Assembly: GCA_002356455.1 (NCBI GenBank)
Contig: AP017968.1
Location: forward strand, 2,728,001-2,792,000
Length of the DNA stretch: 64,000 bases
Direction of reading: 5' to 3'
Origin: Fusobacterium varium
Lineage (GTDB): Bacteria; Fusobacteriota; Fusobacteriia; Fusobacteriales; Fusobacteriaceae
Positions 1,841 to 8,726 of the stretch are shown here, piece by piece. Under the pieces are notes generated by a model, which worked only from the letters and a program-made list of their open reading frames with translations, did not search any database and had not been told where the DNA came from. The position numbers and the translations under genes were made by a program. Numbering within the stretch: the first letter of the stretch is position 1; each line of letters starts with the position of its first letter.

Positions 1841-1900
1841 AAAAGAACCTGATTCAAAAATTACTATACCTTGATAGTTGTTGAAACAGGTTCTTTTATT
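1841..1900. terminator. Bidirectional terminator
   Basis: Inverted repeat with arms of 17 bases (1841-1857 and 1881-1897, one mismatch) that begins AAAAGAACCTG and ends CAGGTTCTTTT; it serves the convergent genes at 1166 and 1900. Confidence 0.85.
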
Positions 1901-4362
1901 TATTTTTTATCTTCCACCCATTGTACAAGGCTCTCTCTTGTTTTTTCTACTATTTCATCATAAGTCATTTTTTCTGGTGAAATTCTATTAAAAAATTTAA
2001 TTTCTATTTTAGATGCTTTAGGGAATTTAGTATTAGCTGGAAATGCTTCAAAAGCTCCTCTTATTCCAAATGGAATAACTGGTATATTCATTTCTTTAGC
2101 TAAAATAGCAAATGCTTTTTTAAATTCCAGCATCTTTCCATCTCTTGTTCTTGCTCCTTCTGGAAATATAACAACACTTTTCCCATCTCTCAGGACTTTA
2201 GCCATTGTCTGAAGTACTTCACCAAGGTTTTTATTGATGTCTACAAGAATAACATTGGAATTTTCTCCAAGTTTTTTCATATATCCTTTAGAAAAATGCT
2301 TTACTTTTGCAAGATAATATATACTTTTAAGTATTCTTGATGGAACTGAATGATTAAATACAAAAGCATCTAAAAGACTTTGATGGTTTCCAGCATAAAT
2401 AACTGGCTCTGTTGTTAGATTTTCCAATCCATTTTTTTGTATTCTTAAATATAATTTGAAAGGAAGCCATGTAAAAAATTTCCCAATCATTGTTACTATA
2501 TTTGATTTAGGCAGCTCTGCTTCTACATCTTTATTCAAATAATCTTTCCAGTTAATTTCTTCAATCTTTTCATCACTTCTATTTTCTTTTACAAATTCAG
2601 CTAGCTTTTCTACAGTTGGATTATCAAGAATTATATTCTCTGCTCCTTTTACTCCAAAATTGCTCTCTAAATAAGTTAAAAGCTCTACCATATCCAAAGA
2701 ATCCATTCCCAAATCAAGTTCTATATGAGCTGTTGGAGATACTGGTCTATTTTTAGCTTTTATCAGATAATCTTTTATGGAAGTATATTCTTCATATTTA
2801 GGTTCTTCTATTTGAAGACTTTCTGTTTCCTTCTCCTTTAACATATCAGCTATCATAAATCTTCTTATTTTACCTATTTTTGTTTTAGGCATTTCTTCCT
2901 GTACAATTCTTATATCAAGTATTTTTCTATAGTTGGGAGCTTTTCCATTATATGAATCAATGACTCCCCATTTCAATGTTTCTTTTATATTTGTTACTTT
3001 TTCATCATGTATTTTTTGAAAATTAGGATATATTATTGCTGTAAGTACAGAATCAATCTCTGCTATAACTATTTCCTGAATAAGATTTGTTTTATTCATT
3101 ATCTGCTGCTCTATTTCTATTGGATTAATATTTTTTCCATTTGATAAAACAATCATTTCTTTTTTTCTTCCAGTTACATAAAGAAAATCATCTTTTATTT
3201 CACCTAAATCTCCTGTATGTATCCATCCTTCATTATCAATTGTTTCGGCAGTTTCTTCAGGTTTATTGTAATATCCCTTCATTACATTTCTGCCTCTGGC
3301 AATAATCTCTCCATCATCTGCTATTTTAGCCTCTATTCCTGGAAGTATTCTTCCTGCTGATCCTGGTCTTATCTCATTTAATGGTGTAAACGAGATCATT
3401 GGAGAAGTTTCAGTCATCCCATACCCTTCGCACACTTTTAACCCAAGTGTAAGAAAATCTTTTGAAACTCTTGGATCAAGTTTTGAACCACCTGATACAA
3501 AAAATCTTACATTTCCTCCAAAATTATCATGCACCTTTTTAAATATTTTTTTACTGAAAGATATACTGTTTACTTTTTCACACAATTTAAAAATAAATTT
3601 AGTTATTTTTCCTGCATTTATTTTTTCCATTATCTTTTGATGAAGCATTTCCCATAATCTAGGTACTCCAATCATCATAGTCACTTTATGAGTCTGAAAA
3701 GCATCTATCATAGCTTGTGAAGACATTTCTTTAAGAAATATAATTGTAGCTCCTTTAGCTAGCGGAACAACTCCTGAACCTAATAATGGGAATATATGAT
3801 GTAATGGAAGAAGTGCTAATACAATATCCTCTTTGATAAACATATTATATTTATCTAATCCCTCTATATTAACAAGTATATTATCAAACTTCAGCATTAC
3901 TCCTTTAGGTTTTCCAGTAGTTCCAGAGGTATACAGCATTAAAGCTATATTTTCGGGTTCTGGTGAATTGAGGACAAGTTCATCTTTTACTTTATAATCT
4001 TCAACCTCATCTACAACTACTATTTTTAAATTTTTTCCAGTTATTTCCAAAGCTTTTTTTACATTTGAAAGATTGTTTTGTGATGTATAAATATATTTTG
4101 AATCAGAATCTTCTATATAGTAAACAAGTTCATCTCCTGACAAACTTGAATCAAGACATACACATGTTCCTGATTTATCCCAAACTCCCAAAAATGAATA
4201 AAGAAATTCTGGTCTATTTTCCATATAAATAATGACTCTATCTTCATTTTCAATTAAAACCTGTGAAGAAAAAATCTTAGCTTTAGTTATCATTTCTTTA
4301 TAGCTTATATTTATTCCTTCATATATTATCGCCGTCTTATTATAATCCCTTACAAATTCCAA
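1900..4362 (-). CDS. Acyl-ACP/acyl-CoA synthetase fused to ACP and PlsC acyltransferase (paralog 1)
   Basis: An 820-residue three-part enzyme. Residues about 1-500 are an AMP-forming adenylating domain: P-loop LYTSGTTGKPKG (143-154), GYGMTETSP, GWIHTGDLG and GRKKEMIVLSNGKNINP. Residues about 525-600 are an acyl-carrier domain with the phosphopantetheine serine in LGMDSLDMVEL (Ser555). Residues about 630-820 are a PlsC-type acyltransferase with NHQSLLD (659-665, HX4D) and FPEGARTRDG (733-742). The likely role is to activate a fatty acid, hold it on the built-in carrier and transfer it to a lysophospholipid, as Aas does with another domain order. TTG start at 4362 behind GGGGGAT. A second paralog lies at 6225-8726. 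Substrate is not known. Confidence 0.85.
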   Translation of the reverse strand: MEFVRDYNKTAIIYEGINISYKEMITKAKIFSSQVLIENEDRVIIYMENRPEFLYSFLGVWDKSGTCVCLDSSLSGDELVYYIEDSDSKYIYTSQNNLSNVKKALEITGKNLKIVVVDEVEDYKVKDELVLNSPEPENIALMLYTSGTTGKPKGVMLKFDNILVNIEGLDKYNMFIKEDIVLALLPLHHIFPLLGSGVVPLAKGATIIFLKEMSSQAMIDAFQTHKVTMMIGVPRLWEMLHQKIMEKINAGKITKFIFKLCEKVNSISFSKKIFKKVHDNFGGNVRFFVSGGSKLDPRVSKDFLTLGLKVCEGYGMTETSPMISFTPLNEIRPGSAGRILPGIEAKIADDGEIIARGRNVMKGYYNKPEETAETIDNEGWIHTGDLGEIKDDFLYVTGRKKEMIVLSNGKNINPIEIEQQIMNKTNLIQEIVIAEIDSVLTAIIYPNFQKIHDEKVTNIKETLKWGVIDSYNGKAPNYRKILDIRIVQEEMPKTKIGKIRRFMIADMLKEKETESLQIEEPKYEEYTSIKDYLIKAKNRPVSPTAHIELDLGMDSLDMVELLTYLESNFGVKGAENIILDNPTVEKLAEFVKENRSDEKIEEINWKDYLNKDVEAELPKSNIVTMIGKFFTWLPFKLYLRIQKNGLENLTTEPVIYAGNHQSLLDAFVFNHSVPSRILKSIYYLAKVKHFSKGYMKKLGENSNVILVDINKNLGEVLQTMAKVLRDGKSVVIFPEGARTRDGKMLEFKKAFAILAKEMNIPVIPFGIRGAFEAFPANTKFPKASKIEIKFFNRISPEKMTYDEIVEKTRESLVQWVEDKK

Positions 4363-4450: not shown

Positions 4451-4753
4451 CTAAATATATGTTATTTCAACATTTAAAATCATTATTTTACTAAAAACAC
4501 TAAATAATGAACTTATTCTTATTTCTTTTATATTTTTTAAATATTCTGGAATAAACACTTTTATCCCTTTTATATCTTTTACAATATATTTTATTTCACT
4601 TTGTGAAATATTAACTGCAGCTTTTATGAATTCACCCTGAATTACATCTTGACAACCTGCTCATCCAAAGCTCTGTATCTCTTTTTTTAATATTATTCCA
4701 TTAAAATTATTTTTTTTCATATATTTTAAAACTTTTTCTTTTATTTCTATCAA
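4451..4753 (-). CDS. Candidate selenoprotein, HesB/IscA-like or CC/Se-motif type (in-frame UGA)
   Basis: One open frame of 101 codons runs from TTG 4753 (GGAGG at 4760-4764, 6 bases upstream) to TAG 4451-4453, interrupted only by TGA at 4661-4663, codon 31. Read as Sec, the context is KKEIQSFG-U-AGCQDVIQG. The 100-residue length, the redox-type U-x-x-C just after a first strand, and the C-terminal KGIKVFIPEYLKNIKEIRI resemble small HesB-like selenoproteins annotated as CC/Se-motif (seleno)proteins. A hairpin AATTCA-GGG-TGAATT (4643-4629) lies with its G-starting loop 23 bases after the UGA, inside the usual bacterial SECIS range, and GCAG/CTGC can form a basal stem. It has its own promoter. 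The alternative is a pseudogene with one nonsense mutation. No Sec machinery is in the window. Confidence 0.62.
4629..4660 (-). promoter_or_regulatory. Candidate bacterial SECIS element
   Basis: Directly 3' of the in-frame TGA, a perfect 6-bp stem AATTCA/TGAATT closes a GGG loop (loop at 4637-4635). The UGA-to-loop distance is 23 bases and the loop starts with G, both as in the bacterial SECIS consensus. A short basal stem (GCAG with CTGC) could extend it. Function is inferred. Confidence 0.5.
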
Positions 4754-4788
4754 ATTTTTCCTCCTTTCAAAATTTAGTATTTTCTTAA

Positions 4789-4929: not shown

Positions 4930-4966
4930 TAACTGTTAATACTTTATAACTTTAAAGGAGAATGTG

Positions 4967-6160
4967 ATGGAAAGATTAGTTGGAACTATTTCTAGAGGAC
5001 TTCGTGCACCTATTATTCATCAAGGTGACAAAATTGAAGATTTCGTGGTTGATGCAGTGTTAGCTGCTGTTGAAAGCGATGGTATTACATTAAGAAACAA
5101 GGACATTGTTGCTGTTACAGAATCTATAGTTGCCAGAGCTCAAGGGAATTATGCTACTACTGATGATATTGCAGCAGATGTAAAAAATAAATATGGAGAT
5201 AATACTATTGGTGTTATTTTCCCAATTTTAAGTCGTAACAGATTTTCTGTATGCTTAAAAGGAATAGCTAAAGGAGCTAAAAAAATTGTTCTTATGTTTA
5301 GTTATCCATCTGATGAAGTTGGAAATCACTTCATAGATATGGAACTTTTGGATGAAAAAAGAGTAAATCCTTGGAGCGATATTCTTAATGAAGCTGAATT
5401 TACTGAAAAATTTGGAAAACCTCTTCATGAATTTACTGGTGTAAATTATATTGAATATTATTCTGAGTTAATTAAAGAACAAGGAGCAGAAGTAGAAGTA
5501 ATATTTGCTAATAATCCTACTGCTATTTTAAATTACACTGATTGTGTTTTAAACTGTGATATCCATACTCGTTTCAGAACTAGAAAATTATTAAAAAAAG
5601 CTGGAGCTAAAATAGTATTTGGTATGGATGAAATCCTTACTTCTTCTCTAAATGGAAGTGGATATAATGAAGATTATGGATTATTAGGATCTAATAAAGC
5701 TACTGAGGATACTATAAAACTTTTCCCTCGTGATTGTAAGGACACTGTTCTTACTATTCAAAAAATGTTTCTAGATAAAACTGGAAAAAATATTGAGGTA
5801 ATGGTATATGGAGATGGAGCATTTAAAGACCCAGTTGGAAAAATATGGGAACTTGCTGACCCTGTAGTTTCTCCTGGATATACTCATGGTTTAGAAGGAA
5901 CTCCTAATGAAATAAAATTAAAATACCTTGCTGATAATGATCTTGCTGGACTTACTGGTGAAGAATTAACTAAAGCAGTTGCTGAAGCTATAAAAAATAA
6001 AGATTCTGATCTTAAAGGACAGATGATAACTCAAGGAACTACTCCTAGAAGACTTACAGACCTTATAGGTTCACTATGTGACCTGACTTCTGGAAGTGGA
6101 GATAAGGGAACTCCTATCATTTTAATTCAAGGATATTTTGATAACTACATAGATAACTAA
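4967..6160 (+). CDS. Coenzyme F420-0:L-glutamate ligase-like protein (CofE family)
   Basis: A 397-residue protein with an N-terminal F420_ligase (CofE) fold: [17 protein letters not shown], the [18 protein letters not shown] segment and a C-terminal half with [23 protein letters not shown]. In archaea and actinobacteria CofE adds glutamate to F420; fusobacteria are not known to make F420, and no other cof gene is here, so the acceptor is probably different and unknown. ATG 4967 is preferred over the GTG at 4964 because AAAGGAG (4954-4960) then sits 6 bases away. It has its own promoter and terminator and lies divergent to the candidate selenoprotein gene. Confidence 0.75.
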
Positions 6161-6224: not shown

Positions 6225-8726
6225 TTATTTTATTAACCACAACTCTATTTCATCCTTACTTTTTTCAACTATCTCTTCTACTGTCAATCCTTCTGGCATT
6301 ATCTTATCAAAAAACTTTATAGATATTGGCATCATACTAGGAAATCTTTGCCCATAAGGCATAGCTTCATATGCACCTTTTATTCCAAATGGAACAACTG
6401 GTATATTCAATTCTTTGGAAAGAATAGCAAAAGTCTTTTTAAAATCCTGTATCTCTCCATCTCTTGTCCTTGCTCCTTCTGGAAATATGACAAGATTCTT
6501 ACCTTCTTTCAATACTTTTGCACTTACTTGTAAAGTTTCTTTCAAATTTTTATTTATATCTATAATAAGAACATTTCCTCTGTCAGCTAAATATTTTCTT
6601 AAAGGTGAACTAAAATGCACTATTGTTCCAAGATAATATGTATCCTTCATCTTAGCAGAAGATATCGCCTGATTGAAAATAAGAGCGTCTAGAAAACTTT
6701 GATGATTTCCAACATATATTGCAGGTTCTGAAAGTATTTTATCCTGCCCTTCTTTTTTCAAACTGAAATAAATACTAAACATTGGCTTTAATATAAATCT
6801 TATAACTTTTCCCACCCATGCTGATTTAGGAAGTTTTATATCTGTACCTTGATTAAGGATTGTTTTCCAGTCAACTTCATTGTCACTGAATTCACCACCC
6901 TTTTCTTTAATAAGTTTAGCCATATCCATCACATTTTTTATATCAGTAAATTCTTCTTCTGTTATTTTTATTCCGAAACTCATTTCTATAAAAGATAATA
7001 TTTCTACTATATCCAATGAATCTAGTCCTAAATCAAGTTCTAAATGTGCATCTGGCATAACTTCTATATTATAATTTTTCTCAATATAATCTTTTAAAGT
7101 TTCATACTCAGTTTTATATTCATCTGGTATTATTATTTCTTTTTTTAATTCAACAGCTGAATTTTCTTCATTTCCATCTTCTATAGCCTGTCCTTTAAGA
7201 AAATCATTAAGCATAAATCTTCTTACTTTTCCTAATTTAGTTTTTGGAAGCTCATTCTTCACTATTTTTATCTCAAGTATTTTTCTATACTTGGGAGCTG
7301 TCACATTATATTTATCTATTATCTCCCATTTTAATGTTTCTTTTATATTAGTTATCTTTCTATGTTTTATTAAATCAAAGTCAGGATACACAACTGCCAT
7401 TAAATGATTATTATATTCCATAACAGCTATTTCTTTTATAAGATCTGTTCCTTTGAATATTTCACTTTCTATATCGCTTGGATTGATATTTTTTCCATTT
7501 GAAAGAACAATCATTTCTTTCTTTCTTCCAATAATAGTAAGATAATTATTTTCTAATTTACCAAGGTCACCTGTATGAAACCATCCATCAGCATCTATTA
7601 CCTCAGCTGTTGCTTTAGGGTTATTATAATAACCTTTCATTACATTAGCACCTTTTACGAGCACTTCTCCATCTTCAGCTATTTTTACTTCTATATCTGG
7701 TATAAGTTCTCCTACTGTTCCAGGTTTTATTCTATGAGGATTATTGAATGAAATAATTGGAGAAGTTTCAGTAAGTCCATATCCTTCCATCAACGGAAGA
7801 CCAAGAGTAAGATAATCTCTAGCAATCTCAGGATCTAATTTGGCTCCTCCTGATGCCATTACCCTTAATGATCCACCTAATTCATCATTAACTTTTTTAA
7901 ATACTAGCCTGCTAAATGCACGACTATTTATCTTCTGACACAATTTGAATAATTTTTTAATTATCCAGCTTTTATTTATCTGTCCCATTATAGCTTTATG
8001 AAGCATTTCCCATACTCTAGGGACTCCAATTATTACAGTTATTTTATAATCTTTTAGAGCTCTTTTTAAGGCTTCTGAAGACATTTCATCTAATATTACA
8101 ACCAAAGTTCCAAAATACATAGTCATAAGTAAATTTATATTTAATGGAAATATATGATGATATGGAAGTATAGCCAGTATCCTGTCAGTCTCATCTACCA
8201 GTTCTATCGCTTTTATAGCATTTATATTAGATAAAAGATTAGCATATGTAAGCATTACACCCTTGGGATTTCCAGTTGTTCCAGAAGTATATAGCAGTAA
8301 AGCTACATCCTCTATATTATCTATATTTACCTCATAATCATCTGGTATAAAATTTTCTGGTACTACTATTTCATCTATATTTATTATTTCTATTTCTTTT
8401 CCATATTTTTCCTTAGCTTCTATTACATTTTTATAATTTTTATTTGTTGCATAAATATATTGAGGTTCTGCATCTTCAAATACATAAAGAAGCTGTTCTG
8501 CATTATAACCTGCATCTAATACAACCCCTATTCCCTTTGAATTCCATACTGAGAAAAGTGCTTCTATTATCTCAGGTCTGTTTTCTATATATACAATAAT
8601 TTTATCATCTTTTTTTATCTTTAATAATGTGGAATAATACTTTATTCCCGTTATGAGCTCTTTATATGAATACTCTCTGTCTTTGTATATAATAGCTGCT
8701 TTTTTTCTATCATGTAAAAAATTCAT
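6225..8726 (-). CDS. Acyl-ACP/acyl-CoA synthetase fused to ACP and PlsC acyltransferase (paralog 2)
   Basis: An 833-residue paralog of the 1900-4362 product with the same order of parts. Adenylation motifs are LLYTSGTTGNPKGVML near residue 145, GYGLTETSPIISF, GWFHTGDLG and GRKKEMIVLSNGKNINP. The carrier site is LDLGLDSLDIVEIL, and the acyltransferase motifs are NHQSFLD and FPEGARTRDG. Compared with paralog 1, the linker before the carrier domain is longer. ATG at 8726 behind CAGGAGG. A 48-codon gene ends 27 bases upstream on the same strand, so the two are probably cotranscribed. Likely fatty-acid activation and transfer to membrane lysolipids; substrate unknown. Confidence 0.85.
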   Translation of the reverse strand: MNFLHDRKKAAIIYKDREYSYKELITGIKYYSTLLKIKKDDKIIVYIENRPEIIEALFSVWNSKGIGVVLDAGYNAEQLLYVFEDAEPQYIYATNKNYKNVIEAKEKYGKEIEIINIDEIVVPENFIPDDYEVNIDNIEDVALLLYTSGTTGNPKGVMLTYANLLSNINAIKAIELVDETDRILAILPYHHIFPLNINLLMTMYFGTLVVILDEMSSEALKRALKDYKITVIIGVPRVWEMLHKAIMGQINKSWIIKKLFKLCQKINSRAFSRLVFKKVNDELGGSLRVMASGGAKLDPEIARDYLTLGLPLMEGYGLTETSPIISFNNPHRIKPGTVGELIPDIEVKIAEDGEVLVKGANVMKGYYNNPKATAEVIDADGWFHTGDLGKLENNYLTIIGRKKEMIVLSNGKNINPSDIESEIFKGTDLIKEIAVMEYNNHLMAVVYPDFDLIKHRKITNIKETLKWEIIDKYNVTAPKYRKILEIKIVKNELPKTKLGKVRRFMLNDFLKGQAIEDGNEENSAVELKKEIIIPDEYKTEYETLKDYIEKNYNIEVMPDAHLELDLGLDSLDIVEILSFIEMSFGIKITEEEFTDIKNVMDMAKLIKEKGGEFSDNEVDWKTILNQGTDIKLPKSAWVGKVIRFILKPMFSIYFSLKKEGQDKILSEPAIYVGNHQSFLDALIFNQAISSAKMKDTYYLGTIVHFSSPLRKYLADRGNVLIIDINKNLKETLQVSAKVLKEGKNLVIFPEGARTRDGEIQDFKKTFAILSKELNIPVVPFGIKGAYEAMPYGQRFPSMMPISIKFFDKIMPEGLTVEEIVEKSKDEIELWLIK

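Follow-up and report, generated by a model that had tools for sequence, protein, structure and literature searches.

The reverse strand of the window (the whole stretch of 64,000 nucleotides of Fusobacterium varium that was analysed) carries at positions 4451 to 4753 a small frame interrupted by one TGA, and the question that this locus raises is whether the codon marks a broken gene or is read by the cell as selenocysteine (Sec). The locus is very probably a real and conserved gene with its UGA decoded as Sec. This reading is preferred because the frame is conserved, Sec and Cys exchange at the interrupted codon, a hairpin downstream of that codon shows covariation, and the genome holds a full set of Sec genes. 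Sec decoding of the TGA at codon 31 appears practically certain, and it is highly likely, leaving the role of the protein aside, that the product is a Sec-decoded protein with the predicted fold of an A-type Fe-S carrier. The elements of the gene are as follows.

4451 to 4753, reverse strand: putative selenoprotein gene of 100 residues, translated with TGA as U; the TGA is conserved in 29 genomes
4753 to 4751, reverse strand: start codon TTG, read directly
4453 to 4451, reverse strand: stop codon TAG, read directly
4661 to 4663, reverse strand: in-frame TGA, residue 31, decoded as selenocysteine within the motif FG-U-AGC; the relatives all have either TGA or a codon for Cys here
4760 to 4767, reverse strand: ribosome-binding site AAAGGAGG, separated from the TTG by 6 nt, read directly; similar sites lie upstream of many relatives

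Codon 31 is the sole in-frame TGA of the frame, as a sequence-only reading of this DNA had proposed, and both the whole read-through frame and its TGA are conserved across genera. The predicted product starts with MIEIKEKVLKYMKKNNFNGIILKKEIQSFG-U-AGCQDVIQGEFIK and includes the stretch GIKVFIPEYLK, and its thiols and selenols would be those of Sec31 and Cys34, with no others. Given the local base composition, a run of 69 open codons past the TGA would arise by chance with a probability of about 2e-4. The ribosome-binding site claimed in the earlier reading is indeed there (4767-4760). The promoter that it had placed upstream exists as a TTGAAT-16-TAAAAT match at 4816-4789, but its occurrence is not above chance, since shuffled sequence would hold 7.6 +/- 3.0 such sites and the actual sequence has 6.

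A search with the read-through protein detected relatives in 26 of 100 genomes, with exactly one internal TGA in 25, and a profile search detected homologues in 35 of 98 Fusobacteriota genomes. The aligned codon is TGA in 29 of the latter, which belong to the genera here numbered g1, g8, g13 and g4, and the six TGA-less genomes all have Cys at this position, in eight sequences, two of them in each of G016 and G028. These Cys-only genomes include three without a selA match (G016, G028 and G059) and three with selA (G024, G035 and G042). Every relative has Sec or Cys at residue 31 and nothing else, and the relatives are free of other frame breaks. In an alignment of 36 sequences, column 31 (Sec/Cys) is the only invariant one, and identity to the window protein is as low as 23% among the TGA forms and 17% among the Cys forms. 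Downstream of the TGA, dN/dS ranges from 0.08 to 0.51 in close pairs, and therefore purifying selection continues past this codon. That codon 31 is a mere stop, brought about in an ordinary small gene by a nonsense mutation or by a sequencing error, is barely conceivable, although one genome alone would look the same; this reading was rejected, since the TGA is conserved among distant relatives (29 genomes in four genera, with the identities given above and no other breaks), selection persists after it, and Cys is the only alternative at that codon.

The distribution of the TGA form also follows that of selA, which is present in 28 of the 29 TGA-form genomes against 24 of the 69 others (Fisher P = 4e-9, to be taken as a guide only since the genomes are related). 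The TGA-form genome without selA (G056) is 76% complete. All 19 genomes of g1 and g8 have selA, and 18 of them have the gene; the genome without it is 71% complete. A search of genome contigs with a 13-row alignment gave one match, to a Fusobacterium MAG; the genome-contig search with the single protein gave no match, and neither did a search of viral contigs.

The host genome (4.12 Mb, 3 contigs) has a single cluster of tRNA-Sec (67.6 bits), selB, selA and selD at 2,840,380-2,845,595 of the same contig, about 108 kb from the frame, and all four of selA, selB, selC and selD are thus present. None of the outcomes that the earlier reading had named as refuting it was therefore observed. Its selD has an in-frame TGA of its own, at GGUASK, and is therefore a second, well-known Sec gene in this genome. 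The locus resembles known bacterial selenoproteins both in this gene set (SelA, SelB, SelD and tRNA-Sec) and in a UGA that aligns with Cys in homologues. As a separate observation, G001 and G009 both have a selA that appears to be split by a frameshift around model position 375, for which sequencing error, decay or a programmed shift are possible.

Other clients of the pathway are few. In the 19 genomes of g1 and g8, searches gave neither a formate dehydrogenase alpha subunit whose gene has an in-frame TGA nor a full-length GrdB, and the window's genome gave no match to GrdA or GrdB. Among the few families tested, SelD and the 4451-4753 protein would be the only Sec clients of the window's genome, and in g1 and g8 this protein is the only Sec protein found besides SelD among those families, SelD having been seen in the window's genome. 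A GrdX-family protein (NF038093, 86 bits) is encoded at 765-1148 on the forward strand; the sequence-only reading was right about this gene, but the link that it drew to the 4451-4753 gene is not supported in a genome with no GrdA or GrdB match.

The rarity of TGA as a stop in the window (1 of 49 ORFs of at least 100 aa) would agree with a codon read as another amino acid, e.g. Trp under genetic code 4, or with leaky read-through. However, TGA is not simply reassigned, because 8 of the 33 ORFs taken from elsewhere in the same genome end with it as an ordinary stop; in addition, the long neighbouring genes have no in-frame TGA, and the aligned residue is Cys and never Trp. With these observations, and with all Sec genes and a Sec-type selD present, code reassignment and leaky read-through are hardly credible and were rejected.

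Sec decoding is further supported by a hairpin placed downstream of the UGA, where the earlier reading had noted a 6-bp stem with a loop that starts with G. Its parts are as follows.

4629 to 4643, reverse strand: SECIS-like hairpin AATTCA-GGG-TGAATT; 3 of its 6 pairs show compensatory changes, and 27 of 28 Sec genes keep it
4635 to 4637, reverse strand: apical loop GGG, +24 to +26 after the UGA
4626 to 4647, reverse strand: extended hairpin from RNAfold, with a lower stem ATG/CAT and a bulged U at 4644

The GGG loop at +24 to +26 and the 6-bp stem agree with the geometry rules of the bSECIS model for loop, stem and spacing. Unlike that model, the hairpin is A+U-rich and has a free energy of -3.9 kcal/mol when isolated (-10.4 for a 54-nt segment), against a model limit of -7.5. 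SECIS scanners would overlook the gene, perhaps in part because of this low stability of the lone hairpin. An Rfam scan of the region gave a chance match only. A stem of at least 5 bp around a loop that has its centre at base +25 from the UGA is found in 27 of 28 Sec genes against one of eight Cys sequences (L082). The stem reads AATTCA/TGAATT in most of g1 and g8, AATTCG/CGAATT in L030 and L031, GCTTCA/TGAAGC in g13 and GTTCA/TGAAC in most of g4; as exceptions, L032, L035 and L036 require a 5-nt loop and L080 has mismatches. The lower stem ATG/CAT is weaker and lineage-specific. Across the stem columns 93.5% of the cells are paired, and the covariation of 0.295 compares with 0.101 +/- 0.020 in shuffled alignments (0 of 500 as high) and with at most 0.058 in slid registers; RNAalifold, unaided, returns the same six pairs. 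When synonymous codons were shuffled with the protein kept, P ranged from 0.001 to 0.35 per sequence, with a combined P of 2e-6 for eight rows hand-chosen to represent the lineages, and for single g1 sequences the shuffles match the hairpin about 5% of the time.

The one Cys sequence that retains the hairpin, as AATTCA-AGT-TGAATT, comes from G059, an 82%-complete genome with no selA match, and reads GSKCCP where its sister genomes have GSKUCP. This hairpin is a fossil SECIS, such as was known before from a HesB-like gene (PMC1794560). In the tree the sequence groups with the Sec rows of its own genus (support 96/91), a position that makes a Sec-to-Cys change in this lineage likely.

With regard to the protein itself, the sole NCBIfam match is the 'CC/Se motif family (seleno)protein' NF041239, at 14.5-15.1 bits against a cut-off of 40. 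This model matches 21 of 25 fusobacterial members over nearly their full length, all below the cut-off (best 36.3 bits, 4.5e-9), and the weak but consistent match backs the CC/Se assignment guessed from the sequence alone. The NF041239 family was first predicted in Moorella thermoacetica. The fusobacterial protein resembles it as a small one-domain protein with a Sec/Cys site, and differs from it in score (15 bits in the window) and in motif: the CC/Se motif is listed as CxxU (PMC13188914), whereas g1 and g8 have U-x-x-C and g13 and g4 have U-C. The Cys rows of g6 (PCSMC) do contain CxxC, and it is the second Cys of this motif that aligns with Sec. The U-x-x-C motif claimed earlier is correct for the window (UAGC) but varies among the relatives. 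L030 has Pro instead of the second Cys, and other genera have a Cys elsewhere, so that relative to the fixed Sec/Cys the second thiol is found at +3 (g1 and g8), +1 (g13 and g4), -2 (L041 and L030) or -3 (g6); in g14 a Cys is adjacent to the fixed residue. Outside the phylum, NF041239 had no match in the one outgroup genome searched. The HesB-like selenoprotein motif is listed as UxGP (PMC13188914), and L030 has exactly UAGP; in contrast, none of the 25 members has the family model TIGR01911 among its listed matches (E <= 1). We filed the protein as a fusobacterial variant of the HesB-like/CC-Se selenoproteins, and no account of such a protein from fusobacteria was found in the open-access full-text literature.

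A search of solved structures by sequence found no relative, and PF01521 matched neither the window protein (E <= 1) nor anything in its own genome; some members have weak matches to IscA/SufA/HesB models. The AlphaFold2 model of the window protein has a pLDDT of 85, its top five Foldseek matches are all of the IscA/SufA/HesB type (best E-value 4e-3), and its best solved matches are A-type Fe-S proteins only (SufA, AQ_1857 and IscA). In VIA-align, ten A-type rows, among which we count 9a4q_B, a YneR model, have Z from 8.1 to 5.1, and the next row has 2.1. Both Foldseek and VIA-align thus support the guess of a HesB/IscA-like protein, and an A-type carrier fold is predicted with good confidence. 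In a weak hhalign profile match to E. coli IscA (E 0.028, probability 1.8%), taken as no more than a hint for the register, Sec falls on the first conserved Cys of IscA and GC-x-G is in register with the IscA GCSG. Sec would most likely be the counterpart of that cysteine. The protein differs from IscA, SufA and ErpA in that it stays below the PF01521 cut-off and lacks their three conserved Cys, with Sec in place of the first and the C-terminal pair of true A-type carriers absent.

Could the protein nevertheless be a true A-type Fe-S carrier, that is, a selenium-based replacement of IscA/ErpA? The predicted fold would fit, and so would its occurrence in a phylum that seems devoid of such proteins, as PF01521 was over cut-off in none of the 98 Fusobacteriota genomes searched (it is present in 9 of 14 control genomes) and a survey reports A-type carriers to be absent from Fusobacteria (PMC2682760). 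However, the C-terminal Cys pair is missing, and the gene occurs in only about a third of the genomes of the phylum and is therefore not a general carrier replacement. We consider a true carrier rather improbable. In a related and still speculative version, slightly less improbable, the whole Sec machinery would be kept for one tiny protein (and SelD), which would act as a selenium-dependent stand-in for an A-type carrier with its second thiol moved between at least four positions.

The neighbouring genes are as follows.

1900 to 4362, reverse strand: AMP-ligase/carrier-protein/acyltransferase fusion of 820 aa (PF00501, PF00550, PF01553), in the same direction as the Sec gene and 88 bp downstream of it
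6225 to 8726, reverse strand: paralogous AMP-ligase/carrier-protein/acyltransferase fusion of 833 aa, assigned by Pfam
4964 to 6160, forward strand: divergent neighbour of the F420_ligase family (CofE-like), 398 aa (PF01996, 186.8 bits)

The CofE-like gene scores well below the NCBIfam CofE cut-offs; a gene of the F420_ligase family also adjoins the Sec gene in four g8 genomes. Adjacency to the downstream fusion is kept in the window's genus, and in five sister genomes (L089, L090, L095, L097 and L098) the Sec gene is directly preceded by a fusion copy, and in all of these except L098 it is placed between two fusions. In those other than L095, which represent four species, the upstream stop lies one base before the ATG of the Sec gene. 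The two fusions and the Sec gene form an apparent operon in sister genomes. The abutting of the gene on paralogous fusions in g1 would agree with a small redox enzyme or thiol partner of acyl-carrier/acyltransferase enzymes, a reading that we regard as possible but unlikely, as the neighbourhood is consistent inside g1 and partly in g8, and other genera have different neighbours. Because of this variation the gene has no fixed partner. In G016 and G028, a Cys homologue (L103 and L104) directly follows what appears, by eye, to be a class I ribonucleotide reductase pair.

The preferred reading, a Sec-decoded protein with an A-type fold, could be summarized in mechanistic terms as follows. A ribosome that reaches the UGA at codon 31 would meet the hairpin just downstream, SelB would bind it and deliver a Sec-tRNA that depends on SelA for its synthesis and on SelD for its selenium, and a protein of 100 residues would result, with a predicted A-type Fe-S carrier fold (IscA/SufA/HesB) and Sec at the first conserved Cys site in the absence of the C-terminal Cys pair. 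We infer the insertion of Sec at this UGA from the evidence set out above. The missing C-terminal pair favours selenol/thiol chemistry or the binding of a single-site metal or cluster over canonical Fe-S carriage; this would be the most likely role, at a confidence evenly balanced between yes and no. In the window's genus the protein may serve the surrounding acyl-ligase/acyltransferase enzymes, a tentative link that we hold to be doubtful.

Since the protein falls far short of the score required by the one family model that matches it, and a UGA interrupts its frame, current annotation would probably miss the gene. Several genera of the window's family nevertheless conserve it, and it gives these bacteria a concrete selenium-dependent protein. 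It also offers a natural Sec-to-Cys series, which includes a fossil SECIS, and a predicted A-type carrier fold in a phylum reported to be without A-type carriers.
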